In this document: in pieces, positions 15,588 through 27,876 of the stretch
Numbering within the stretch: the stretch's first letter is position 1
Layout: the number at the start of each line of letters is the position of its first letter
Assembly: GCF_034313965.1 (NCBI RefSeq)
Contig: NZ_JAVIWQ010000002.1
Span: 1,364,001-1,428,000 of the forward strand
DNA length: 64,000 nucleotides
Reading direction: 5' to 3'
Source of the DNA: Herbaspirillum sp. RTI4
GTDB taxonomy: Bacteria > Pseudomonadota > Gammaproteobacteria > Burkholderiales > Burkholderiaceae_D
Notes under the pieces: generated by a model
Told to the model about the DNA's origin: nothing
The model's input: only the letters and a program-made list of their open reading frames with translations
Database searches by the model: none
Program-made: the position numbers and the translations under genes

Positions 15588-16001
15588 CTAAGCCGCCTTC
15601 GGAATCCACTCCTGCACCGTCAGTTCAATCGTAATGAACGACAAATTACTGCCGCGCACGAATCGTCCGGCGTGGATTTTTCCATCGATATCGGCCACCA
15701 CGCCTTGTAACTGATTGGCGTGTGGCTGGCTGTCGTCGCCGAAGCCGATCTCGCCGAAGACATTCAGAATCTCCACTCCGGGGCCGACAATTTCGGTTGT
15801 GCGCCAGCCGTCGGCGGTGCGGTATTCGAGGTGGGCGTCGATCAGACTGCCGAGCGCGCCGCGCACGATGGCGGTGCGCATGCCGTGTTCGCGGCACAGC
15901 GCTTCCACGCTTTCGGTCAGATCCTGGTTCGGTTTCAGGCGCGCCATGACCAGCTTGCCCAGCGTGCCTTCTTGTACTTCTACATCAGCGAAAATCGTCA
16001 T
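15588..16001 (-). CDS. PPC (DUF296)-domain protein, shorter partner
   Basis: 137 residues made almost entirely of one PPC (plants and prokaryotes conserved, DUF296) domain: MARLKPNQDLTESVEALCRE, a REHGMRTAIVRGALGSLIDAHLEYR strand-turn, VEILNVFGEIG, then QLQGVVADIDGKIHAGRFVRG. Family members form trimers; the plant ones are AT-hook partners, while the bacterial function is not established. The usual HxH...GGH histidine pattern is degraded here (HANQLQ...HAG). Its start overlaps the stop of the larger PPC gene as ATGA, and that gene overlaps the acyl-CoA ligase in the same way. An enzyme or binding role in the same pathway is inferred. Confidence 0.75.
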   Translation of the reverse strand: MTIFADVEVQEGTLGKLVMARLKPNQDLTESVEALCREHGMRTAIVRGALGSLIDAHLEYRTADGWRTTEIVGPGVEILNVFGEIGFGDDSQPHANQLQGVVADIDGKIHAGRFVRGSNLSFITIELTVQEWIPKAA

Positions 16002-16564
16002 TGGGGTTCCATGGGTGTCGGATGCAATAGACTGAAAAGCGTCTCTTCGTCGCGGGTAACGACAAAGGCGCTGCGGGAAAATAAACATAAACGAATGATG
16101 AGCGGATCGTCGCCCACGATCACGTCGTCGAGCAGCAGATGGCCGCCATGCACTACACCGTCGCTGTTGATGAATCCGGCGTGGCAATGCAGCAGGATTT
16201 TCCCTTCCTCGTTCTGGCCGATGGTGATGCCGCCGGTGACAAAGGTGATCTGGCCTTGCAGTGCAAAGGCGGTGCCGTAATCGTAGGGACGGTGCGGAAT
16301 GTCGATATCTTCGATGCGGTGATACTTCAGCGAACCGGCGCTGCCGCCGACGAAACGGCCGACGCCGCCGCGCTGTCCGTAGCGGGCCAGCACCTCGCAC
16401 AGCGCCGGGCCGACCGCAGTACCGGTGGGCAGACTCATGCGCAATTCTTCCGCCGGATCGGCTTCCAGATCGAGCAGACGCGGCGAGCTGGGCTGACCGG
16501 CATGAATAAATTTACGCACACTGACGAAGCCGGGCGTGTGTAGCGGAGCAGGGGAGTCGCTCAT
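15998..16564 (-). CDS. PPC (DUF296)-domain protein, longer partner
   Basis: 188 residues. An N-terminal extension of about 55 residues (SDSPAPLHTPGFVSVRKFIHAGQ onward) precedes a PPC/DUF296 domain with FVGGSAGSLKYHRIED, VTGGITIGQNEEGKILLHCHAGF and GVVHGGHLLLDDVIVGDDPLII. Unlike its partner it keeps the HCH and GGH histidines typical of bacterial members, so it may bind metal. Both its start and stop overlap neighbours as ATGA, giving a tight ligase-PPC-PPC operon. A heteromeric PPC complex is plausible but inferred. An upstream in-frame extension to 16672 would lie inside the ligase gene and is not favoured. Confidence 0.75.
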   Translation of the reverse strand: MSDSPAPLHTPGFVSVRKFIHAGQPSSPRLLDLEADPAEELRMSLPTGTAVGPALCEVLARYGQRGGVGRFVGGSAGSLKYHRIEDIDIPHRPYDYGTAFALQGQITFVTGGITIGQNEEGKILLHCHAGFINSDGVVHGGHLLLDDVIVGDDPLIIRLCLFSRSAFVVTRDEETLFSLLHPTPMEPQ

Positions 16565-18141
16565 AAACGGTAGTCTCCCTGTTCTTCGAGCAAAGCCTTG
16601 ATTTGTTTTTTGACGATTTTGCCGTAACCGGATTTGGGCATGTTGTCCCAGAAGATAAAACGGCGCGGGCATTTGTATTTGGCGACGCGCTCAGCCAGAT
16701 GCTCCAACAGTACTGCTGCATCGGCTGGCATGCCGCTTTTGGTGACGATGACTGCCAGCCCGCTCTCACCCCACTTGGGATCAGGCACGCCCAGCACCGC
16801 CACTTCCGACACCGATGGATGCAATAACAGGGCTTCTTCGATTTCGCGCGGATAGACATTCGAGCCGCCGGAAATATACATATCGGAAGAGCGTCCCGTG
16901 ATGTACAGGAAGCCTTGCGCATCGACGTGACCGAGGTCGCCGGTATGGAACCAGCCGCCTTTGAAGGCCTTGGTATTGGCGTCGGGATTGTCGTGATAGC
17001 CAAGAAAAACAGCCGGGCCGCGCACGCAGATTTCACCGGTTTCATGTGGTGCCAGCCGCACGCCGCTATTGTCGAGAATGGCGATTTCCATGCCGGTGCG
17101 CGGGATGCCGCAAGTGCCTACGCGGGCTTCGGGGTGCTGGTCGTCGGCGTGGTGCATTTCGGGTGGCAGCCAGGTGATATTGCCGGTCACTTCGCCCAGG
17201 CCGTAATACTGCACCAGCACCTTGCCCAGCTTGTTGATGGCGTGGCGCTGATCGGCGCGGTACATGGGCGCGCCGGCGTAAATGACGTGTTTCAGCGAGC
17301 TGTGATCGTAACGATCGACGCTGGCGTCTTCGGTCAGTATCTTGACGATGGTCGGTACAGTAAACATGTTGTCGATGCGATGCGTCTGCACCAGTTGCCA
17401 CGCTTCTTCCGGGATCAGGCGCTCACTCGACAGCAGCACGCTGGCTGCGCCGCGTGCGGTGTTGACGACGGCGTGAATGCCCGCGCCATGCGACAGCGGT
17501 GCGACGACCAGCGAGCGTGATCGATGGCTCAACCCGGGCAGTAAATCGGCCAGATGATTGGTGACCACAAACGCCATCTGGCCGTGGGTCAGCATGCCGG
17601 CTTTGGGATGGCCGGTGGTGCCGGAGGTATAAAAAAACCAGAGCGGATCGTCGTACTCGACTTCGGTTTCAGGGAAGGCGGGGCCGCTGTCGGCGTGAGC
17701 GGCGAGTTGCTCGTAATCGAGTTCGCCGGTGCGCGGATTGCGCAAGGCCACGACATGGCTCAGCGCTGGCGAGACGGCTTTTACGGCATCGACGTAGGGC
17801 GCAAAGCCCTCGTCATAAATCATGACGGAAGCCGCGCTGGACTGACCCAGATACGCCGCTTCCGGCGCAGTGATACGGACATTGGTCGGCACCCAGATCG
17901 CCCCCAGCTTGAAGGCAACCCAGGCGCTCTCGAAAATTTGCAGGTTGTTGCGCGAATGGACCAGGATGCGGTCGCCTTTGCCGACGCCGATTTTCTGCAA
18001 GGCATGGGCAACGGCATCGACACGGCGGTTGATCTGCGACCAGGTAGTGACGACGGGGCCGACAATCAGCCCCGGTTCGTCGGGAAAGCGGCGCGCCACA
18101 TCGGACAGCATGCGGCCTAAATTCATTACATTTTTTAACAT
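16561..18141 (-). CDS. Acyl-CoA ligase, AMP-forming
   Basis: A 526-residue adenylate-forming enzyme. The phosphate loop is YTSGTTGHPKAG, followed by the adenine-binding YYGLGEVTG, the hinge region TGDLGHVDAQGFLYITGRSSDMYISGGSNVYPREIE and the C-terminal catalytic-lysine motif SGYGKIVKKQ. It activates a carboxylic acid to its acyl-AMP and then its CoA thioester. The subfamily looks like fatty-acid, phenylpropanoid or cyclic-acid ligases; the substrate is unknown. It is translationally coupled to two PPC proteins downstream. A 1.08-kb repeat array separates it from the thiolase on the same strand, so one transcript may span both. Confidence 0.9.
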   Translation of the reverse strand: MLKNVMNLGRMLSDVARRFPDEPGLIVGPVVTTWSQINRRVDAVAHALQKIGVGKGDRILVHSRNNLQIFESAWVAFKLGAIWVPTNVRITAPEAAYLGQSSAASVMIYDEGFAPYVDAVKAVSPALSHVVALRNPRTGELDYEQLAAHADSGPAFPETEVEYDDPLWFFYTSGTTGHPKAGMLTHGQMAFVVTNHLADLLPGLSHRSRSLVVAPLSHGAGIHAVVNTARGAASVLLSSERLIPEEAWQLVQTHRIDNMFTVPTIVKILTEDASVDRYDHSSLKHVIYAGAPMYRADQRHAINKLGKVLVQYYGLGEVTGNITWLPPEMHHADDQHPEARVGTCGIPRTGMEIAILDNSGVRLAPHETGEICVRGPAVFLGYHDNPDANTKAFKGGWFHTGDLGHVDAQGFLYITGRSSDMYISGGSNVYPREIEEALLLHPSVSEVAVLGVPDPKWGESGLAVIVTKSGMPADAAVLLEHLAERVAKYKCPRRFIFWDNMPKSGYGKIVKKQIKALLEEQGDYRL

Positions 18142-18185: not shown

Positions 18186-18205
18186 CGCCGGATCCTTCGA
18201 TACGG
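18186..18205. repeat. Inverted 20-bp copy of the array motif
   Basis: CGCCGGATCCTTCGATACGG is the exact reverse complement of a segment in the direct array (18371-18390). It marks the left edge of the repeat block in opposite orientation. Confidence 0.85.
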
Positions 18206-18215
18206 GATTGAATCC

Positions 18216-19185
18216 CTGCTCAGGAGGAACGGTAGGGAGGGTGATAAGGAAAATCACCTGCGTACTAACACGCCTTTCCCGTTCGACTGCCTGAATAAAA
18301 ACATTCCTTCCCGTTCGTTTGCCTAAATATAAACATCCCTTCCCGTTCGTCCTGAGTAGGCGCAAATGCGCCGTATCGAAGGATCCGGCGACACGCCGGT
18401 CTGGCCGGGATTGCATCCCTGCTCAGGAGGAACGGTAGGGAGAGTGATAAGGAAAATCACCTGCGTACTAACACGCCTTTCCCGTTCGACTGCCTGAATA
18501 AAAACATTCCTTCCCGTTCGTTTTCCTAAATAAAAACATCCATTCCCGTTCGTCCTGAGTAGGCGCGAATGCGCCGTATCGAAGGATCCGGCGGCACGCC
18601 GGTCTGGCCGGGATTGCATCCCTGCTCAGGAGGAACGGTAGGGAGGGTGATAAGGAAAATCACCTGCGTAATAACACTCCCTTCCTGTTCGATTGCCTGA
18701 ATAAAAACATCCCTTCCCGTTCGTTTGCCTAAATATAAACATCCCTTCCCGTTCGTCCTGAGTAGGCGCGAATGCGCCGTATCGAAGGATCCGGCGACAC
18801 GCCGGTCTGGCCGGGATTGCATCCCTGCTCAGGAGGAACGGTAGGGAGAGTGATAAGGAAAACCACCTGCGTACTAACACTCCTTTCCCGTTCGACTGCC
18901 TGAATAAAAACATCCCTTCCCGTTCGTCCTGAGTAGGCGCGAATGCGCCGTATCGAAGGATCCGGCGACACGCCGGTCTGGCCGGGATTGCATCCCTGCT
19001 CAGGAGGAACGGTAGGGAGGGTGATAAGGAAAATCACCTGCGTAATAACACGCCGTTCCTGTTCGATTGCCTGAATAAAAACATCCCTTTCCGTTCGTTT
19101 GCCTAAATAAAAACATCCATTCCCGTTCGTCCTGAGTAGGCGCGAATGCGCCGTATCGAAGGATCCGGCGGCACGCCGGTCTGGC
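18216..19185. repeat. Nested tandem array: five 203-bp units with 32-bp sub-repeats
   Basis: Units anchored on CTGCTCAGGAGGAACGGTAG begin at 18216, 18419, 18622, 18825 and 18996. The first three are exactly 203 bp; the fourth is 171 bp, one 32-bp sub-repeat shorter; the last breaks off near 19185. Within unit 1, CCGTTCG blocks are spaced 32 bp apart (18280, 18312, 18344). Each unit also has two hairpins, GGCGC-GAAT-GCGCC and CCGGCG-ACA-CGCCGG (loop GCA in units 2 and 5). The array lies between the thiolase and acyl-CoA ligase genes. The motif CGTTCGTCCTGAG...TATCGAAGG resembles dispersed proteobacterial intergenic repeats, but tandem amplification in 203-bp units is unusual. No gene is supported here. 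Confidence 0.93.
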
Positions 19186-19224: not shown

Positions 19225-20403
19225 TCATGCCACCCGCTGCAAAATACTCACGTAATTGGCCACCGCTGCGCCGCCCATGTTGAATACGCCCACCTTGTCG
19301 GCATGGGGGATTTGCATCTCTTGCGCATCGTGGCAGGCTTGCATCGCCGCCATGACGTGCATCGATACCCCCGTAGCACCGATAGGATGTCCCTTCGATT
19401 TCAGTCCACCGGAAGGATTGACCGGCAAGCGGCCGTCTTTGGCGGTGACGCCGTCGAGAATGGCGCGCGCGCCCTGGCCCGGTTCGGCCAGCCCCATGGC
19501 TTCGTATTCCAGCAATTCAGCGATGGTGAAGCAATCGTGGGTTTCGACCAGCGACAGATCGTTCAGGGTGATGCCGGCTTGCGACAGCGCCTGTTTCCAG
19601 GCCAGTGCGCCGCCTTCAAAGCGGGTCGGATCGCGTTTGCTCAGCGGCAGGAAATCGTTGACGTGAACGGCAGCGCGGAACTGCACGGCGCGGGTCATGC
19701 CTTTGGCGACATCGGCCGAACTGATGATCATGGCGGCAGCGCCGTCGGAAATCAGCGAGCAGTCGGTGCGCTTGAGCGGGCCGGCGACGAAGGGATTTTT
19801 CTCGGAGGGCGTGCGGCAAAAGTCGAAACCGAAATCCTTGCGCATGTGGGCGTAGGGATTGGACATGCCGTTCTTGTGGTTCTTGGCGGCGATGGCGGCC
19901 AGCGCATCGGACTGGTCGCCGTAGCGATCGAAATACGCTTGGGCGATGGTGCCGAAGACGCCCGCGAAGCCGCCGGGGATACCGGCTTCTTCTTTGGCGT
20001 AAGAGCATTTGAGCAGCACGTCGCCGACGGCAGCGGTGGACAGTTCGGTCATTTTTTCAAAGCCGATGACGAGTGCGTGTCGCGATTGACCGGCGCGGAT
20101 CGAATTGAGCGCGGAATGAATCGCAGCCGAGCCGGTGGCGCAGGCGTTTTCCACCCGTACTGCCGGCAGGAAGCGCAGTTGCGGCAGGGTATTGAAGATC
20201 AGCGAGGAGGGGAAGTCCTGATACAGGAAGCCGCCGTTGAAATTGCCGATGTGGATGGAGCCGATGTCTTCCGGCGACAGACCCGCGTGGGCAATGGCGG
20301 CGGCGGCGACTTCGCCGATCAGCGCTTCAGGGTCAATGCCATCCAGTTTGCCAAAGCGTGAATGGTTCCAGCCGGTAATGCAGGGGGAGGCGGAGGTGCT
20401 CAT
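19225..20403 (-). CDS. Thiolase-family protein, SCP-x/acetyl-CoA acetyltransferase-like
   Basis: 392 residues of the SCP2-type thiolase subgroup. The nucleophile motif is VENACATGSAAIHSA, the HDCF motif is VETHDCFTIAELLEYEAMGL, and the C-terminal GGLKSKGHPIGATGVS carries the catalytic histidine. The final classic CxG cysteine is replaced by NMGGAAV, which is usual in this subgroup. It would cleave a 3-ketoacyl-CoA, or act in condensation. ATG 20403 follows AAGGAACT; a longer frame to 20637 has no family match. A strong sigma-54 promoter motif precedes it. It is divergent from the TRAP transporter and upstream of the acyl-CoA ligase on the same strand. Confidence 0.9.
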   Translation of the reverse strand: MSTSASPCITGWNHSRFGKLDGIDPEALIGEVAAAAIAHAGLSPEDIGSIHIGNFNGGFLYQDFPSSLIFNTLPQLRFLPAVRVENACATGSAAIHSALNSIRAGQSRHALVIGFEKMTELSTAAVGDVLLKCSYAKEEAGIPGGFAGVFGTIAQAYFDRYGDQSDALAAIAAKNHKNGMSNPYAHMRKDFGFDFCRTPSEKNPFVAGPLKRTDCSLISDGAAAMIISSADVAKGMTRAVQFRAAVHVNDFLPLSKRDPTRFEGGALAWKQALSQAGITLNDLSLVETHDCFTIAELLEYEAMGLAEPGQGARAILDGVTAKDGRLPVNPSGGLKSKGHPIGATGVSMHVMAAMQACHDAQEMQIPHADKVGVFNMGGAAVANYVSILQRVA

Positions 20404-20449
20404 GAGTTCCTTGAACGAAAGAGTGAGGAAATAATAATAGAGGGCGTAA

Positions 20450-20465
20450 TGCAAAAACGGTGCCA
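20450..20465 (-). promoter_or_regulatory. Sigma-54 (-24/-12) promoter for the leftward thiolase arm
   Basis: Read leftward the sequence is TGGCACCGTTTTTGCA. GG and GC are 12 bases apart and it matches the TGGCAC-N5-TTGCW consensus almost perfectly. The predicted transcript start is near 20439, about 36 bp before the thiolase start codon. Confidence 0.75.
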
Positions 20466-20540
20466 CGCCGGGTTGTAGATCTTGTTTGTTGCCGATCTTT
20501 GATTCTGCTTCTGAGGATAGCAGCGCGCAGCCCTTATTTT

Positions 20541-20644
20541 TGTCGCGTCGCAGCATGCAAGGGCAGCGACAGGTGTCGCATTTGCGACAGTTGTCACCTC
20601 GAAATAAACACATTGTCGCTATGCGGCAGGCATGCAAATGTCGC
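20541..20644. promoter_or_regulatory. Cluster of TGTCGC/GCGACA half-sites, probable enhancer
   Basis: TGTCGC occurs at 20541, 20574, 20614 and 20639, and GCGACA at 20566 and 20584. The centre reads GCGACA-GG-TGTCGC-ATTT-GCGACA (20566-20589), two overlapping palindromes. It lies about 140 bp upstream of the leftward and 165 bp upstream of the rightward sigma-54 start, normal enhancer distances. The bound protein is inferred to be the activator at 26659. Confidence 0.65.
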
Positions 20645-20722
20645 TTTCAGTATGCGATACTCAGCCGCTCGTATAGAACAAATACGATAACCGGACGAAG
20701 AGCCGGGACTGGGTATGCAGCA

Positions 20723-20738
20723 TGGCATTCAAATTGCT
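20723..20738 (+). promoter_or_regulatory. Sigma-54 (-24/-12) promoter for the rightward TRAP arm
   Basis: TGGCATTCAAATTGCT keeps GG and GC 12 bases apart and differs from consensus mainly at the sixth base. The predicted start is near 20749, 75 bp before the TRAP binding-protein gene. Confidence 0.7.
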
Positions 20739-20823
20739 CTGTATCAAACCAAACAGTATCAAGCAGGCTGCGGCGTGATGCCGGAGGATTGCCAACACTA
20801 AAAACAAAGAGGAGACAAATCAG

Positions 20824-21861
20824 ATGGGTACTATTCGTAATGTTTCGCGTCGTCATTTCCTGAAAACCGCTTCTGCCGCCACTGCGGTGGTCACTGCCGG
20901 TTCCTACGCGTCGTCTGCTTTTGCGGAGACGGCCGAGTTCACGCTGAAGTACGCCAACAATTTGCCGCTGACGCATCCGATGAATATGCGCGCCAAGGAA
21001 ATGGCGGCCAAGATCGCTACCGAATCCAAGGGACGCATCGATTTTCAGGTCTACCCTAATGGCCAGTTGGGTACCGATACCGATACCCTGTCGCAGATTC
21101 GCGCCGGCGCAGTCGATTTCTTCACGCTGTCACCATTGATTCTCGGCACGCTGGTGCCCGCTGCGCAAATCAGCGGTATCGGCTTCGCCTTCAAGGATTA
21201 CAACCAGGTATGGGCCGCGCTGGACGGCGATCTGGGTGCGCATGTGCGCAAGCAAATTGTCGCCAGCTCGACCCTGTTTGCGTTTGAAAAAATCTGGGAC
21301 AGCGGCTATCGCCAAATGACCAACAGCACCCGGCCGATCACCAAGCCGGAGGATTTGAAGGGCATGAAACTGCGTGTGCCGCCAAGCCCGCTGTGGACTT
21401 CGATGTTCCGCGCCTTCGATGCCGCACCGACCAGCATCAACTTCGCCGAAGTGTATTCCGCGCTGCAAACCAAGATTGTCGAAGGACAGGAAAATCCGCT
21501 GGCAGTGATCTATACCGCCAAGCTCTACGAAGTGCAAAAGTATTGCGCCATCACCAACCATATGTGGGATGGCTTCTGGTTCCTCGGCAACAAGAAATCG
21601 TTTGAAAAACTGCCGAAAGACCTGCAAGAGATCGTTACCCGCAACATCAACGAAGCGGGCCTCAAGCAGCGCGTCGATGTCAAAGCGCTCAACGATTCTC
21701 TCGTAGCCGAAATGAAAACCAAGGGCATGGCGTTTAACAATGCCGATCCTGATGCGTTCCGCGCCAAGCTGCGCAGCGCGGGTTTCTATGCCGAATGGAA
21801 TAAAAAATTCGGTGCTGAAGCCTGGGCGATTCTGGAGAAATACACCGGAAAGCTGGCGTAA
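20824..21861 (+). CDS. TRAP transporter substrate-binding protein (DctP family)
   Basis: A 345-residue periplasmic protein. The N terminus has a twin-arginine-like signal (VSRRHFLKTASAATAVVTAG...SSAFA) with cleavage expected after AFA near residue 34. The mature part shows the DctP fold: FTLKYANNLPLTHPMNMRAKEMA, VYPNGQLGTDTDTLSQIRAGAVDF, and the conserved arginine stretch KGMKLRVPPSPLWTSMFRAF that contacts a substrate carboxylate. It captures an organic acid for the membrane subunits encoded next. AGAGGAG precedes the start. The stop codon is immediately followed by the next gene's ATG. A sigma-54 motif lies upstream. Confidence 0.93.
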   Translation: MGTIRNVSRRHFLKTASAATAVVTAGSYASSAFAETAEFTLKYANNLPLTHPMNMRAKEMAAKIATESKGRIDFQVYPNGQLGTDTDTLSQIRAGAVDFFTLSPLILGTLVPAAQISGIGFAFKDYNQVWAALDGDLGAHVRKQIVASSTLFAFEKIWDSGYRQMTNSTRPITKPEDLKGMKLRVPPSPLWTSMFRAFDAAPTSINFAEVYSALQTKIVEGQENPLAVIYTAKLYEVQKYCAITNHMWDGFWFLGNKKSFEKLPKDLQEIVTRNINEAGLKQRVDVKALNDSLVAEMKTKGMAFNNADPDAFRAKLRSAGFYAEWNKKFGAEAWAILEKYTGKLA

Positions 21862-23748
21862 ATGGAGGCGGTCGCTACTTTGTCTCCGGGGCTTCCTCAC
21901 CACCCGGCGGCGCGACTGCTGGCGACCGTCAACCGCGGCGCCATGCACGCCGTCGGTGCGGTGGCCGCCACCTTGCTGGTGGTCGAAACTTTCGTGCTGC
22001 TGCTGGGTGTCATTTATCGGTATGCGCTGCACGATCCGCTGATCTGGTCGGATGAACTGGCTTCCACGCTGTTCATCTGGCTATCGATGCTGGGTGCGGT
22101 GCTGGCGCTGGATCGCGGCGAGCATATGCGTCTGACCGCCGTGGTCAACAAGCTGTCGGAAAAATGGCGCGTCTGGCTGGAAACGGTGGCGGCGCTGGTG
22201 GTCTGCATTTTTGTGCTGATGATTATTCATCCGGCGGTCAATCATGCCGTCGATCAGATGGACATCACGACCCCGGCGCTGGAAATTCCCGATGGCTTGC
22301 GGACTGCCGCTTTGCCTATCGGCGCGGTGTTGATGCTGCTGGCAGCGCTGGCCCGCATGGCAGTGCGTTCCAGCTGGCAGCAAGTCGCTTCTGCGCTGGT
22401 CTTCGTCGGCCTTATCTGCGGCGTGCTGTGGCTGGGTCGTCCGGCCTTGCTGGCGATGGGCAATTACAACCTGATTATCTTTTTTGTGGTGCTGATCGGC
22501 GCGTGCGTCGCGGGCGGCATTCCGATTGCGTTTGCTTTCGGTACCGCCACCATGGCCTATCTGACGCTGGCCACCGGTGCGCCGCTGATGATTGTGGTCA
22601 GTCGTATGGATGAGGGCATGTCCAGTCTGATTCTGTTGTCGGTGCCGCTGTTCGTGCTGCTCGGCTCGCTGCTGGAAATCAGCGGACTGGCGCGTACGCT
22701 GATCGATTTCATGGCAGCGTTGCTGGGCCATGTGCGCGGCGGTTTGCAATATGTGCTGCTGGGTGCGATGTTTCTGGTGTCGGGGATTTCCGGCTCGAAG
22801 GCGGCGGACATGGCGGCGATTGCGCCAGCGCTGTTTCCTGAAATGAAAAAGCGCGGCGCGAAACCGGAAGAACTGGTGGCCTTGCTTTCCTCCTCCGGCG
22901 CGATGACCGAAACCATTCCCCCTAGTCTGGTGCTCATTACGATTGGCGCGGTGTGCAGCGTATCGATTTCTGCCCTGTTCGTCGGCGGCTTGATGCCGGC
23001 GGTGATCGCCACAGCGGCCATCGGCGTGGTGTGCTGGTTCCGGGCGCGTCGCGAACCGTTGACTGGCATTCCCCGCGCCCCTCTGGCGGTAGTCGGCAAA
23101 ACCTTGCTGGTGGCTTTGCCGGCGCTGGCGCTGCCCTTGCTGATCCGGGTCGCCGTGATCGAAGGGGTGGCAACGGCGACTGAAGTGGCGACTATCGGCG
23201 TGGCCTACACCGTCGCCGTCGGTTTGATCATGCACGTCTTCATGCGGCATCTGGATTTCAAGCGTTTGTATCCGATGCTGGTGGAATCGGCAGCGCTGTC
23301 GGGCGCGATTCTGCTCATTATCGGACTGGCGACTTCCATGGCGTGGGCGCTGACGCAGTCGGGATTTTCGGCGCGACTGGTGGCGCTGATGCAGAACGTG
23401 CCGGGCGGCGGTACGGGATTCTTGCTCATCTCGATTGTGATTTTCATCGTGCTGGGCAGCATTCTGGAAGGCATTCCCGCCATTGTCCTGTTCGGACCGC
23501 TGCTGTTTCCGGTAGCGCGTTCGCTGGGTATCCATGACGTGCATTACGCCATGGTGGTGATTCTGTCGATGGGCATAGGCTTGTTCGCGCCACCGTTCGG
23601 CGTCGGTTTCTATGCCGCTTGCGCGATCGGCAAAGTCTCGCCCGACCGGGTGTTCAACCGGGTATGGGGTTATCTGACGGCCTTGCTGATTGCCTTGTTA
23701 GTCGTCGCAGCGGTGCCGTGGATTTCAATCGGCTTCCTTGAAAAATAA
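21862..23748 (+). CDS. TRAP transporter fused small and large permease (DctQM)
   Basis: 628 residues joining both TRAP membrane subunits. Residues ~1-190 are DctQ-like with four helices and the motif DELASTLFIWLSMLGAVLALDRGEHMRL. Residues ~200-628 are DctM-like, with FGTATMAYLTLATGAP, SGSKAADMAAIAPALFPEMKKRG, the conserved SSGAMTETIPPSLVLI and GIGLFAPPFGVGFYAACAIG. Together they use a sodium gradient to import the ligand delivered by the binding protein. Translation starts on the base after the previous stop. Fusion of the two subunits is common in such systems. The ligand is probably the carboxylate metabolised by the neighbouring enzymes (inference). Confidence 0.93.
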   Translation: MEAVATLSPGLPHHPAARLLATVNRGAMHAVGAVAATLLVVETFVLLLGVIYRYALHDPLIWSDELASTLFIWLSMLGAVLALDRGEHMRLTAVVNKLSEKWRVWLETVAALVVCIFVLMIIHPAVNHAVDQMDITTPALEIPDGLRTAALPIGAVLMLLAALARMAVRSSWQQVASALVFVGLICGVLWLGRPALLAMGNYNLIIFFVVLIGACVAGGIPIAFAFGTATMAYLTLATGAPLMIVVSRMDEGMSSLILLSVPLFVLLGSLLEISGLARTLIDFMAALLGHVRGGLQYVLLGAMFLVSGISGSKAADMAAIAPALFPEMKKRGAKPEELVALLSSSGAMTETIPPSLVLITIGAVCSVSISALFVGGLMPAVIATAAIGVVCWFRARREPLTGIPRAPLAVVGKTLLVALPALALPLLIRVAVIEGVATATEVATIGVAYTVAVGLIMHVFMRHLDFKRLYPMLVESAALSGAILLIIGLATSMAWALTQSGFSARLVALMQNVPGGGTGFLLISIVIFIVLGSILEGIPAIVLFGPLLFPVARSLGIHDVHYAMVVILSMGIGLFAPPFGVGFYAACAIGKVSPDRVFNRVWGYLTALLIALLVVAAVPWISIGFLEK

Positions 23749-23758
23749 ATAGCCTGCC

Positions 23759-23786
23759 ATGGCGGCCCCGGTCTGCGGGCCGCCAT
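23759..23786 (+). other. Stem-loop between the TRAP and SDR genes
   Basis: ATGGCGGCCC (23759-23768) pairs perfectly with GGGCCGCCAT (23777-23786) around an 8-nt loop. There is no T-run, so it is more likely an mRNA processing or stability hairpin within the operon than a terminator. Confidence 0.55.
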
Positions 23787-23806
23787 CCCTTCCTCTCGGA
23801 GAAAAC

Positions 23807-24577
23807 ATGCAAGAAAACGATAACGGCACCCGTGTGGCGCTTGTGACAGGCGCCGCCACGGGCATTGGTGCTGCGATTGCTCAACGGCTGGCGCAGGACG
23901 GTCATCGGGTGCTGGTGGCCGATATTGATCTGGCCGCAGCACAGGCAACCAGTACCGCTATTAATGTGGCCGGCGGGCAGAGCGCGGCGCTGGTGATGGA
24001 TGTCGGTGACCCGGCTTCGATTGCGGCGGCTTTTGCCCTGATCGACAAGGAATACGGCCGCTGCGACGTGCTGGTCAATAACGCCGGGGTAGCCAAGATT
24101 TGCAGCTTCCTTGATTTCCCGCTCGATAACTGGCAACGCACGATGAATATCAATGTCACCGGGCCTCTGCTGTGCGGCCAGCACGCGGCGCGGATGATGC
24201 TGCGCCGCAAGTGGGGACGTATCGTGAATATTTCCTCGATTTCCGGTTTGCGTGCCGGTGCCGGACGCACCGCTTACGGTACCTCCAAAGCGGCCGTGAT
24301 CGGCCTGACGAAGCAGATGGCAATTGAGCTGGCGGAACACGGCATTACGGTCAACAGCGTGGCACCGGGGCCGATTGATACGCAGATGACGCTGACTTTG
24401 CATACCGCCGAGATGCGCGAAGGTTTTAACCGGCAGGTGCCGATGAAGCGCTACGGCACGCCCGATGAAATTGCGGCAGCGGTGGGGTTTCTGGTGTCGC
24501 CGGCGGCCTCGTATGTGACCGGGCATGTGATGCCGGTCGATGGTGGTTTTATTGCCGCCGGATTGCTCGATAGCTGA
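23807..24577 (+). CDS. Short-chain dehydrogenase/reductase 1
   Basis: A 256-residue classical SDR. The Rossmann motif is VTGAATGIGAAIA (TGxxxGxG), followed by NNAGV, and the catalytic Ser-Tyr-Lys set appears as NISSISG and AYGTSKAAV. The C terminus AAGLLDS follows the conserved PVDGGF. Such enzymes use NAD(P)H to interconvert alcohols and ketones; here it may oxidise a hydroxyacyl intermediate. ATG 23807 has GGAG upstream; a frame extending to 23759 would include the stem-loop. It follows the transporter by 58 bp and precedes a second SDR by 34 bp, so all are likely one operon. Confidence 0.9.
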   Translation: MQENDNGTRVALVTGAATGIGAAIAQRLAQDGHRVLVADIDLAAAQATSTAINVAGGQSAALVMDVGDPASIAAAFALIDKEYGRCDVLVNNAGVAKICSFLDFPLDNWQRTMNINVTGPLLCGQHAARMMLRRKWGRIVNISSISGLRAGAGRTAYGTSKAAVIGLTKQMAIELAEHGITVNSVAPGPIDTQMTLTLHTAEMREGFNRQVPMKRYGTPDEIAAAVGFLVSPAASYVTGHVMPVDGGFIAAGLLDS

Positions 24578-24611
24578 ATGTCCCTTTCCCTTTTCAGAAA
24601 CAGGAGACCGC

Positions 24612-25439
24612 ATGCAAAATAAAAATACCCAACCACACCTTCCCCAACGCAGCATGGAAGGCAAGGTGGTGCTGGTAACGGGCGCTGGCTCCGTCGGCCC
24701 CGGCTGGGGCAACGGCAAGGCGGCGGCGACCTTGTATGCGCGCGCAGGAGCGCGCATTCTGGCAGTTGATCGCAGCTTGCCGGCGGCGCAAGAGACCTGC
24801 GACCTGATACGCGCAGAAGGCGGCGTCTGCGAAGTGTTTGCGGCCGATGTCGCGGATAACGCGCAAGTGAGGGCGATGACGCAGGCGGCGCTCGATTTTT
24901 TCGGCCGCATCGATGTGCTGCATAACAATGTCGGGATTGCCGAAGTGGGTGGCCCGGTCGAGGCCAGCGAAGAAAGCTGGAACCGGGTAGTGGCGGTCAA
25001 CCAGACCAGCCTGTTCCTGACCTGCAAGCATGTGCTGCCGGTGATGGTGGCGCAGAAGGGCGGGGCGATCGTCAATATTTCCTCGATTGCAGCCATTCGC
25101 TGGATCGGCTTTCCGTATGTGGCTTACAGCGCGACCAAGGCGGCCATGCTGGCATTCACCAAGAACATCGCCATGCAGTACGCGCCGCTGGGCATACGCG
25201 CCAATTGCATTCTGCCGGGACTGATGGATACGCCGATGATCCGTGAGCCGCTCAAGGCTTCGTACGGCGGCGATATCGATGAAATGCGCCGTCAGCGCGA
25301 TACCCAATGTCCTATGGGTTACATGGGAGACGCCTGGGATGTCGCACATGCGGCGCTGTTTCTGGCCTCCGATGCGGCGCGTTACATCACGGGCGTGGAT
25401 CTGCCGGTGGATGGGGGGCTGAGTCTGCGCTGTGTTTGA
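24612..25439 (+). CDS. Short-chain dehydrogenase/reductase 2
   Basis: A 275-residue SDR with an extended nucleotide loop, VTGAGSVGPGWGNGKAAA, longer than the usual TGxxxGxG. The rest is canonical: NNVGIAEVGGPVE, the catalytic serine in NISSIAAIRW, and Tyr-Lys in AYSATKAAM, ending PVDGGLSL. It differs clearly from the first SDR, so the two probably act on different intermediates or stereoisomers. CAGGAG precedes ATG 24612. It ends the rightward operon; the LysR gene follows on the opposite strand. Confidence 0.9.
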   Translation: MQNKNTQPHLPQRSMEGKVVLVTGAGSVGPGWGNGKAAATLYARAGARILAVDRSLPAAQETCDLIRAEGGVCEVFAADVADNAQVRAMTQAALDFFGRIDVLHNNVGIAEVGGPVEASEESWNRVVAVNQTSLFLTCKHVLPVMVAQKGGAIVNISSIAAIRWIGFPYVAYSATKAAMLAFTKNIAMQYAPLGIRANCILPGLMDTPMIREPLKASYGGDIDEMRRQRDTQCPMGYMGDAWDVAHAALFLASDAARYITGVDLPVDGGLSLRCV

Positions 25440-25503: not shown

Positions 25504-26415
25504 TTAAGCGACTGCCTGCGCCGTTGCCTGCATCTGCCGCCACACTTCCGTGGCGGTATCGGCAAAAGTGTGAATGCAGGGATTACGGTTGTCCCGGTGC
25601 CACAGCACAGCGATGCTCACCATCGGCGGCGCAGCCAGAGGGACGAAGACGGTGCTGTCGAGATGCATCGCGCGCATGGAGTTCGGCACCAGCGCCACAC
25701 CCAGCCCTTCGCCCACCAGATTGACGATGGTTTGTTGCAGATTGGTTTCCAGTTGTATGCGGGGGCGGAAGCCGTGCGCCAGACAATAATGGATGATCTT
25801 GTCGTGTTCGACCGGGGCGATGAGGCGCGGAAAAATAATAAAAGATTCCTGCGCCAGATCGCTGGCGTGGAGCAGTTCGCGCTGCGCCAGCCGGTGATCG
25901 TGCGGCAGCACTGCCACCAGCGGTTCTGAAAAAATTGTGCGGCTTTCCAGCGCGCTGCAATCTTCCGGGCGGTACATCAGCGCGACATCGGTATGGCCGT
26001 CCAGCACATCGGTCGCCAGCAAATTCGGGACGTATTCGGTCAGCCGCATGTCGACGTCGGGGTAGGCGGCCGAATAATGGCGGGTCACGGCAGGCAGAAT
26101 GTTATAGGCGCTGGACATCATGAAGCCCACCAGCAGCGAGCCATTCCTGCCGGCACTGGCCGACACCGCATTGCGCCGGGCGCGTTCCAGTGCGGTAAAC
26201 ACCTCTGTCGTATCGCGATAAAAATGCTCACCCGCCGCCGTGAGCCGGACGTTGCGTTTGCTGCGGTCGAATAGCTGCACCCCGAGTTCCCGTTCCAGCG
26301 CGGCGATCTGGCGCGTCAGCGGCGGTTGCGAAATGTGCAGCAGAACGGCGGCTTTGCCGAAGTGCAGGGTTTCGGCAACGGTGCGGAAGTAGCTCAGGTG
26401 GCGCAGTTCTATCAT
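25504..26415 (-). CDS. LysR-family regulator, BenM/CatR-like
   Basis: 303 residues. The N-terminal helix-turn-helix ELRHLSYFRTVAETLHFGKAA, with ISQPPLTRQIAALE, matches the BenM/CatM/CatR group, which controls aromatic-acid degradation in response to muconate-type inducers. The effector domain includes GFMMSSAYNILPAVTRHY and IFPRLIAPVEHDKIIHYC. It is convergent with the SDR operon and divergent from the sigma-54 activator gene. The shared spacer contains an ATAC-N7-GTAT site, the recognition pattern of exactly this LysR group, suggesting autoregulation and control of the activator. Confidence 0.88.
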   Translation of the reverse strand: MIELRHLSYFRTVAETLHFGKAAVLLHISQPPLTRQIAALERELGVQLFDRSKRNVRLTAAGEHFYRDTTEVFTALERARRNAVSASAGRNGSLLVGFMMSSAYNILPAVTRHYSAAYPDVDMRLTEYVPNLLATDVLDGHTDVALMYRPEDCSALESRTIFSEPLVAVLPHDHRLAQRELLHASDLAQESFIIFPRLIAPVEHDKIIHYCLAHGFRPRIQLETNLQQTIVNLVGEGLGVALVPNSMRAMHLDSTVFVPLAAPPMVSIAVLWHRDNRNPCIHTFADTATEVWRQMQATAQAVA

Positions 26416-26506: not shown

Positions 26507-26525
26507 TCATACCTTAAAGGTATGA
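26507..26525. promoter_or_regulatory. LysR-type operator (ATAC-N7-GTAT)
   Basis: TCATACCTT, centre A, AAGGTATGA form a perfect 19-bp palindrome containing ATAC-N7-GTAT (26509-26523). It lies 92 bp upstream of the LysR gene and 134 bp upstream of the activator gene. Confidence 0.7.
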
Positions 26526-26658
26526 AAAGTGTCACTATATTGTATTGGAAGTTATCAGTGAAGCTGGCTATTCTTAAAACACAGAGGCGGGACCACCTGC
26601 CCTGACGTCCTGGTCACAAGCCATGCAGACGTCCCGATTGCCCTTCACAGGAGACACC

Positions 26659-27876
26659 ATGCCGACATCCCCGGTAGCTTTCACCTTTGCCGCGCCCGCT
26701 GCTTCTTCTTTTTCTTCTTCTTCGCTGCCTCCCGCTCATCAACCCCCCCATCGTTCCGCTTCGCGTTACCGTCCCTTGGATACCCTGTGCGGAGGCGATC
26801 CGACCATGCACACGCTGATCGAGCGCGGCAAGCGCCTGATCGATCACGGCATTCCGATATTGCTGCTCGGCGAGACCGGCACCGGCAAGGAATATTTGTC
26901 GCGCGCCTTGCATGCCTATAGCGCACGACGCGACGCCGGCTGGGTCGCGGTCAATTGCGCATCGATTCCCGAAAGTCTGGCCGAGAGTGAGCTGTTCGGT
27001 TACAGCAAGGGCGCGTTTTCCGGCGCTTTGCCCGGCGGCATGAAAGGCAAGGTGCAACAGGCCGATGGCGGTACGCTGTTCCTCGATGAAATCGGCGATA
27101 TGCCCTTCAGTTTGCAGACCCGTTTTTTGCGCGTGCTGTCGGAACGCGAAGTCATTCCGCTGGGCGCGGCGCAGCCGGTGAGTGTCGATCTTCAACTGAT
27201 TTGCGCCACGCATCAGGATTTGCATGTGCTGGTGGCGCAGGGGCGCTTCCGTCAGGATTTGTATTACCGCATTGCGGGCGGCATTTTGCGCTTGCCGGCT
27301 TTGCGCGAGCGAGCCGATGCGCGCAGTCTGATCATGCAGATGATTGCCGATGAACTCGGATTGCCAAGGCCGGATGAGGACATGATTTCCGCCTCGGCTT
27401 TGCAGCGTTTGCTGCGGTGCAGCTGGCCCGGTAATTTGCGGCAGCTGCATGCCGTAGTGCGCTATTGCTGCGCCGTCATGAACGGGGCGCAGATCGAGTC
27501 GGAGGATTTGCCGGAAGAATTAATGCCGAACGAATTAAGGCTGAATGAATTAAGGGCGAATGAATTAAGGCTGAATGAATTAAGGCCGAATGACTTAATG
27601 CCGAATGACTTAATGCCCAATAGTCAGACCGATACCGCCGCTGGCTTGCCACCCATGATGGCGCTGGTAGAGCCGCAGCCTTTGCGTGCAGAGGGAGCTT
27701 TGGGTGTCGAGCGCAGTCGGGTCATTGATGCGCTGGTCGGCAGTCGCTGGAATATTTCGGCGGCATCGCGCCAGCTGGGGATGTGCCGCGCTTCGCTGTA
27801 TCGCAAACTGCGTCAGCTGGATATTCCGCATGTGCGCGATCAGTCCGGGCTGGTGCCGGCTTACGCCATGCCGTAA
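26659..27876 (+). CDS. Sigma-54-dependent activator, AcoR-like, without a sensory domain
   Basis: A 405-residue enhancer-binding protein. After only ~50 Ser/Pro-rich residues comes LDTLCGGDPTM, as in the AcoR family, then the AAA+ domain: Walker A GETGTGKE, the sigma-54 contact loop GAFSGA, Walker B GTLFLDEIGDMP and arginine finger FRQDLYYRI. The C terminus is a Fis helix-turn-helix (SRWNISAASRQLGMCRASLYRKL). AcoR proteins are normally ~650 residues with N-terminal GAF/PAS sensing; that part is absent, as in PspF. A linker near residues 285-320 consists of repeated N(E/D)L(R/M)x pentapeptides. It is the likely activator of the divergent sigma-54 promoters at 20.4-20.7 kb. GGAG precedes ATG 26659. 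Confidence 0.88.
   Translation: MPTSPVAFTFAAPAASSFSSSSLPPAHQPPHRSASRYRPLDTLCGGDPTMHTLIERGKRLIDHGIPILLLGETGTGKEYLSRALHAYSARRDAGWVAVNCASIPESLAESELFGYSKGAFSGALPGGMKGKVQQADGGTLFLDEIGDMPFSLQTRFLRVLSEREVIPLGAAQPVSVDLQLICATHQDLHVLVAQGRFRQDLYYRIAGGILRLPALRERADARSLIMQMIADELGLPRPDEDMISASALQRLLRCSWPGNLRQLHAVVRYCCAVMNGAQIESEDLPEELMPNELRLNELRANELRLNELRPNDLMPNDLMPNSQTDTAAGLPPMMALVEPQPLRAEGALGVERSRVIDALVGSRWNISAASRQLGMCRASLYRKLRQLDIPHVRDQSGLVPAYAMP
27520..27617 (+). repeat. 15-bp coding minisatellite in the activator linker
   Basis: About six to seven in-frame copies of a 15-bp unit like AATGAATTAAGGCTG encode NELRL, NELRA, NELRL, NELRP, NDLMP, NDLMP. It joins the AAA+ domain to the Fis DNA-binding domain. 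It is much more AT-rich than the flanking coding sequence. Confidence 0.9.

Follow-up and report, generated by a model that had tools for sequence, protein, structure and literature searches.

The window analysed here, a 64,000-nucleotide stretch of the genome of Herbaspirillum sp. RTI4, contains a gene island whose leftward and rightward arms begin with a thiolase-domain gene and dctP, respectively, and diverge from a 420-bp intergenic region. This arrangement raises the question of whether a single activator, bound between two divergent sigma-54 promoters, could switch on both arms, as the first-pass annotation had proposed. The island encodes a thiolase, an acyl-CoA synthetase, two short-chain dehydrogenases, two PCC-domain proteins and a TRAP importer (Table 1), suggesting uptake of an organic acid and its breakdown in the form of a CoA ester. 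The thiolase and acyl-CoA synthetase genes are separated by a tandem array (18203-19185) in which a 203-bp unit, containing 32-bp sub-repeats, is present ~3.6 times; the gap between these two genes in the relatives' loci is only ~30-450 bp. The tandem array may weaken read-through of the leftward operon.

The locus was compared with its counterparts in a family set of 145 genomes, in which dctP was matched at E 1e-60 in 32 genomes and the thiolase gene at E 1e-80 in 15. The two genes lay side by side and divergent in 12 family genomes, the window's included; together with Pandoraea captiosa and three named Herbaspirillum loci, these made up the 16 loci compared. The relatives include G101 (H. 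aquaticum), G059 (Herbaspirillum sp. GW103), G142, G129 and G026 (Herbaspirillum), and G112 and G054 (Glaciimonas).

Both intergenic promoter elements contain the -24 GG and -12 GC at the fixed spacing in a TGGCAC-N5-TTGC context, with TGGCACCGTTTTTGCA matching the consensus at 11 and TGGCATTCAAATTGCT at 10 of the 12 scored positions (GG and GC fixed). The whole 64-kb window contains 11 matches scoring at least 10 on its two strands, and two of them fall inside the 420-bp intergenic region, where 0.07 were expected by density; at least two such matches arose in only 2 of 1000 shuffles of this region. The pair is kept in all 16 divergent thiolase/TRAP-transporter loci (Herbaspirillum, Glaciimonas and Pandoraea), the rightward counterpart in Pandoraea scoring 9 of 12. 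The leftward (20465-20450) and rightward (20723-20738) elements named by the first-pass annotation are thus exact, exceed chance in the window and recur at every locus. An rpoN gene (PF04552 match above cut-off) was found at one place in the genome, and both promoters are predicted to be active.

Table 1. Coordinates of genes and predicted regulatory sites of the island in the window
Feature	Position	Strand	Basis and remarks
PCC-domain protein	15588..16400	-	Pfam; start uncertain; conserved neighbour
PCC-domain protein	15998..16672	-	Pfam match below cut-off; start uncertain; conserved neighbour
Acyl-CoA synthetase, leftward arm	16561..18141	-	Pfam; NCBIfam NF005676 above cut-off
Thiolase-domain protein, first gene of leftward arm	19225..20403	-	Pfam; NCBIfam NF005704 above cut-off; start taken as ATG 20403
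Leftward sigma-54 promoter TGGCACCGTTTTTGCA	20450..20465	-	Exact match; counterpart in 16/16 loci
Half-site TGTCGC	20541..20546	+	Exact match
Operator 1 of putative enhancer AGCGACAGGTGTCGCA	20565..20580	.	1 mismatch to TGCGACANNTGTCGCA
Half-site GCGACA, left half of operator 1	20566..20571	-	Exact match
Half-site TGTCGC, right half of operator 1	20574..20579	+	Exact match
Operator 2 of putative enhancer TGCGACAGTTGTCACC	20583..20598	.	2 mismatches; palindromes allowed up to 3
Half-site GCGACA, left half of operator 2	20584..20589	-	Exact match
Half-site TGTCGC	20614..20619	+	Exact match
Half-site TGTCGC	20639..20644	+	Exact match
Rightward sigma-54 promoter TGGCATTCAAATTGCT	20723..20738	+	Exact match; counterpart in 16/16 loci
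DctP, TRAP solute-binding protein, first gene of rightward arm	20824..21861	+	Pfam; NCBIfam
Fused DctQ-DctM TRAP permease	21862..23748	+	Pfam
Short-chain dehydrogenase 1	23759..24577	+	Pfam; start may be 23804
Short-chain dehydrogenase 2	24540..25439	+	Pfam; start may be 24621
LysR-family regulator, divergent to activator gene; inferred sensor tier	25504..26415	-	Pfam; 11/12 family genomes
LysR-type box TCATACCTTAAAGGTATGA, T-N11-A palindrome	26507..26525	.	Exact in 10 relatives, one copy per genome
Sigma-70-like promoter of activator gene, TTGGAA-18 bp-TATTCT	26545..26574	+	Alignment; predicted
Sigma-54 activator, AAA+ domain with GAFSGA loop, lid, Fis-type HTH	26659..27876	+	Pfam, alignment

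The six TGTCGC/GCGACA half-sites annotated earlier at 20541-20644 were all found in place. They form the sole cluster of at least three half-sites within 110 bp across the 64 kb; a Poisson estimate puts the chance of one arising anywhere in the 64 kb at ~3e-5, and shuffled intergenic sequences (n = 2000) contained at most two half-sites. The earlier description of their centre, GCGACA-GG-TGTCGC-ATTT-GCGACA, was borne out in part: the palindrome GCGACA-GG-TGTCGC stands, and the TGTCGC-ATTT-GCGACA portion is not a unit of its own but the junction of two operators whose centres are 18 bp apart. The exact form TGTCGC-N4-GCGACA occurs once in this genome, at that junction, and was ruled out as the operator because the relatives keep TGCGACA-N2-TGTCGCA instead. 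This 16-bp sequence is the conserved unit of the putative operator. The centres of operators 1 and 2 lie 121 and 139 bp from the leftward -12 GC and 163 and 145 bp from the rightward one, close to the spacing of ~140-165 bp proposed before for both sides.

The exact operator was found at 11 places in the 12 genomes, 10 of them at the thiolase/dctP locus; at the locus it is exact in 10 of the 11 relatives and has one mismatch in the window. G077 has degenerate operators (2-3 mismatches) even though its activator helix does not differ from that of the others. All 16 divergent loci have one or more TGCGACA-N2-TGTCGCA-like palindromes between the promoters, with only one in G112, three spaced 33 and 30 bp in Pandoraea captiosa, and extra direct TGCGACA-like copies at 11-12 bp steps in several Herbaspirillum relatives. 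The rightward -12 GC lies 133-175 bp from the operator in most loci, while on the leftward side the separation ranges between 121 and 434 bp, a pattern that fits an enhancer. When the stretch between operator and rightward promoter was aligned in 16 rows, the operator and the -24/-12 element alone gave runs of invariant columns.

Several further sequence elements were noted. A second exact operator is present in G142 far from the island (G142:C1:1679918-1679933), and the Pandoraea captiosa genome contains one exact copy away from the locus. Most rows of the alignment also keep a block between enhancer and rightward promoter, GAGAATAC, whose form is TTATCGCAGAGAATAC in the genus and TTTAGACGAGAATA in Glaciimonas; it could be the site of a bending protein or a second regulator. 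Between the thiolase gene and the array, TTTACGTTAACGTAAA is present in all seven other Herbaspirillum genomes compared, the G142 copy having one mismatch, and none was seen by eye in the window or in four Glaciimonas-group genomes; it also lies near 1501-1516 in L198 and L199. The sole other copy in G116 and in G026 precedes a MerR-like regulator gene, suggesting an extra input of the LiuR type.

The Fis-type sigma-54 activator that had been assigned to the end of the island has both expected domains: PF00158, the AAA+ sigma-54 interaction domain, is present, and PF02954, the Fis-type HTH domain at the C-terminal end, scored above cut-off in the window protein and in the seven other short activators scanned. 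The loop is intact and reads GAFSGA in all 16 short activators; Thr or Ser is accepted at position 4 of GAFTGA (PMC3162934). Short activators, which are 356-422 aa long as read here, have 50-98 residues before the ATPase motif, whereas 17 other activators have 164-381. Pfam detected no N-terminal signal domain in the window activator or in the other short activators scanned; the same blank was obtained for L122, a full-length comparison activator, and the sensor-less call therefore rests on length and not on Pfam. By this measure the clade appears to leave no room for a sensor, as in class Ic activators. In a tree of 33 rows (16 short and 17 other activators) the short proteins formed one group with support of 100/100, in an analysis for which the program warned that long branches meet. 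A database search in which the best 7999 candidates by shared words were scored gave 225 relatives at E 1e-95; the best 120 of these were 295-450 aa long, although candidates of up to ~709 aa were allowed, and their named holders were mostly Herbaspirillum, Glaciimonas and Pandoraea. As a peculiarity of the window, the activator gene contains seven copies of a 15-bp repeat (27517-27621) that specify an iterated linker (NELRLNELRANELR...), which none of the other 13 activators aligned has.

The first-pass annotation had recommended a search for the composite site in related genomes. This search showed that the promoters, the operator in the form TGCGACA-N2-TGTCGCA and the activator co-occur in 12/12 family genomes with divergent genes, the G077 operators being degenerate. 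The short activator is linked to the island in each of these 12 genomes and at all 11 short-activator loci of the genome collection, two of which are from the same genomes as G101 and G059. Operator matches with at most one mismatch were present in six of the best 80 activator loci, all six with a short activator. The remaining short-activator loci are either without the relevant region (L114, L117) or from Pseudomonas (L119-L121); L114, L117 and L120 do not extend to the promoter region of dctP or of the thiolase-dctP pair. No operator at this threshold was found in L122-L190, which are 69 of the best 80 loci; the 21 of their activators that were measured were all longer (487-735 aa), and no island genes were found at the 18 next-best loci scanned (L122-L139). 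Genes, sites, spacings, their uniqueness and their co-inheritance are read directly from the DNA.

As a control, the regions upstream of 18 distant dctP homologues, from 18 of the 20 family genomes outside the 12, were scanned and contained no operator (best 4-6 mismatches) and no sigma-54 site scoring at least 10, with sites scoring 9 in three of them. The regions upstream of the three thiolase homologues outside the 12 likewise contained no operator and no sigma-54 site scoring at least 10. An activator search across the order gave matches in 2 of 399 genomes at E 1e-90, a figure that, with four candidates scored per genome, is not evidence of absence.

In three Pseudomonas genomes the thiolase gene does not adjoin dctP. 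There, the thiolase gene has its own sigma-54 site, TGGCACCGCTCTTGCT, in all three genomes, together with GGAGACANNTGTCGCT, an operator-like core ~122-142 bp upstream of the -12 element. Both loci that contain the region upstream of the Pseudomonas dctP gene show two operator-like cores there as well as a sigma-54 site; L120 and L121 also have a second, more distant copy of dctP, at which neither was found. Because the unlinked Pseudomonas arms each carry their own copy, these data suggest that the single array of the divergent loci serves both arms. Activator helices and sites correspond as follows: helix GMCRASLYRKLRQL/EL pairs with operator TGCGACANNTGTCGCA, the Pandoraea helix GFCRASLYRKLKQL occurs at a locus with three TGCGACANNTGTCGCA-like sites, and the Pseudomonas helix GICRPSLYRVLRRL pairs with an altered site keeping a GACANNTGTC-like core.

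LysR-type regulators usually recognize a T-N11-A palindrome near position -65 of a divergent promoter. The LysR gene adjoins the activator gene divergently in 11 of the 12 family genomes, and also in Pandoraea and Pseudomonas, and in the window a T-N11-A box is centred at ~-65 of the predicted TTGGAA-18-TATTCT promoter. This box has one mismatch in the window, where its distance from the LysR gene exceeds that in the relatives by ~90 bp, and it is not a clean palindrome in Pandoraea and Pseudomonas. Where found, it is always between the LysR and activator genes, with no match within two mismatches at the structural promoters. In G077 (Glaciimonas), neither a LysR match at E 1e-90 nor the box was found, and the activator adjoins an IclR-family gene; so does a second activator copy in G054 (Glaciimonas), 1.6 Mb away from the first. 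These two IclR-linked activators pair in the tree (100/99) inside the LysR-linked set, implying that LysR is probably the older partner. No operator (best palindrome 3 mismatches) and no sigma-54 site scoring at least 10 were found within 15 kb of the second G054 activator. That cluster (L092, 2232-7186) contains the IclR gene and, by eye, PhyH-like dioxygenase and GntR-like genes, as well as a close homologue of short-chain dehydrogenase 2 that is lacking from the main island of G054. A candidate IclR operator, GGTCCATNTTATGGAC, is exact and occurs once, beside the activator, in G077; as a specific operator in G054 it was rejected, with two mismatches beside the activator and 13 such matches genome-wide.

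Taken together, we consider it likely that the island has its own two-tier circuit, in which an inducer acts through LysR on the sensor-less activator and thence, by way of the shared enhancer, on both sigma-54 operons. LysR, responding to the inducer, would bind its box in front of the divergently oriented activator gene and turn on the sigma-70 promoter of that gene. As the activator has no sensor domain, its amount, and not a ligand, would probably set its activity. Its target would be the TGCGACA-N2-TGTCGCA array in the thiolase-dctP intergenic region, from where looping would allow it to drive open-complex formation at both sigma-54 promoters, so that TRAP uptake and CoA-linked breakdown would be switched on together. 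From these comparisons we infer which protein binds where, whether the promoters are active, the direction in which LysR acts, and the inducer. The comparative evidence supports the earlier proposal, in which one island-end activator bound at a central enhancer would serve two divergent promoters; the sensor-less activator and the LysR box at its promoter indicate that the circuit probably has a second tier beyond that proposal.

Control could instead be exerted on the activity of the activator, with an unlinked protein holding it inactive, as PspA does PspF, and LysR tuning its level. Such partner-protein control exists for some sensor-less activators (PMC4987338), but among the linked genes compared no small partner gene is conserved beside the activator, and what is kept there is a gene for a DNA-binding sensor (LysR or IclR), making this explanation unlikely. 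That the TGTCGC/GCGACA array is the operator of LysR or another factor, with the sigma-54 activator binding elsewhere, seems improbable. The half-sites by themselves name no protein, yet no regulator besides the activator is conserved at all loci, and in Pseudomonas operator and activator helix change together. LysR itself was rejected as the array binder: its box has a different sequence and is located at the activator promoter, and G077, which is without LysR, keeps the half-sites and both sigma-54 sites.

The wide range of distances between operator and leftward promoter (121-434 bp), and the presence in Herbaspirillum relatives of another palindrome nearer that promoter, would fit a locus in which only one promoter is active and the other -24/-12 element is a relic or differently regulated. 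We regard this as very improbable, given that the leftward site is retained in 16/16 loci and that the Pseudomonas thiolase promoter has its own operator-like core ~122-141 bp upstream in 3/3 genomes. Within the two-tier circuit, activator and enhancer might together be a portable output unit that takes its input from whichever regulator controls activator transcription, usually LysR and, in one Glaciimonas, IclR. In G054, the LysR- and IclR-linked activators, with near-identical helices, might then both act in trans on the one enhancer, giving an OR gate; this reading as a whole, module and gate, is put forward tentatively, at somewhat less than an even chance.

Sigma-54 activators usually have their own sensor. 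Sensor-less ones form class Ic, for which PspF, HrpR/HrpS and LafK are named by Francke et al. (2011; PMC3162934), PspF being controlled by its partner PspA (PMC4987338). The island clade resembles them in having AAA+ and Fis-type HTH domains without an N-terminal signal domain; it differs in being nearest, among the proteins compared, to full-length AcoR-type activators, in serving a catabolic island and in being paired with a LysR or IclR gene. Among full-length relatives, AcoR-type regulators of acetoin catabolism come closest (38-52% identical across the AAA+ region at the loci listed), and databases label several clade members 'Acetoin catabolism regulatory protein'. Nevertheless, the short activators lack the long N-terminal ligand-sensing region of AcoR in the strict sense, have GAFSGA in place of GAFTGA and a different HTH sequence, and are not linked to acetoin genes in the loci compared. 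A sigma-54 activator and a one-component regulator also act in series from NtrC to Nac and from XylR to XylS. In those systems the order is reversed, whereas here the one-component regulator would stand upstream and the sigma-54 activator last; Nac is LysR-type and sigma-54 linked (PMC4987338). No description of the circuit, clade, site or cascade was found in the open literature, subscription journals lying mostly outside the search.

From the comparisons above, a clade on the AcoR side seems to have lost its sensor and passed sensing to a separate regulator controlling its synthesis, with essentially one operator per genome for each tier. If true, the island would offer a compact natural test of a sigma-54 activator governed by concentration alone, and would bear on why a cell places a sigma-54 step after a LysR switch. 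It would also show how regulators get exchanged without altering target promoters, and would assign a predicted binding sequence to many proteins whose sole annotation is 'sigma-54-dependent Fis family regulator'.
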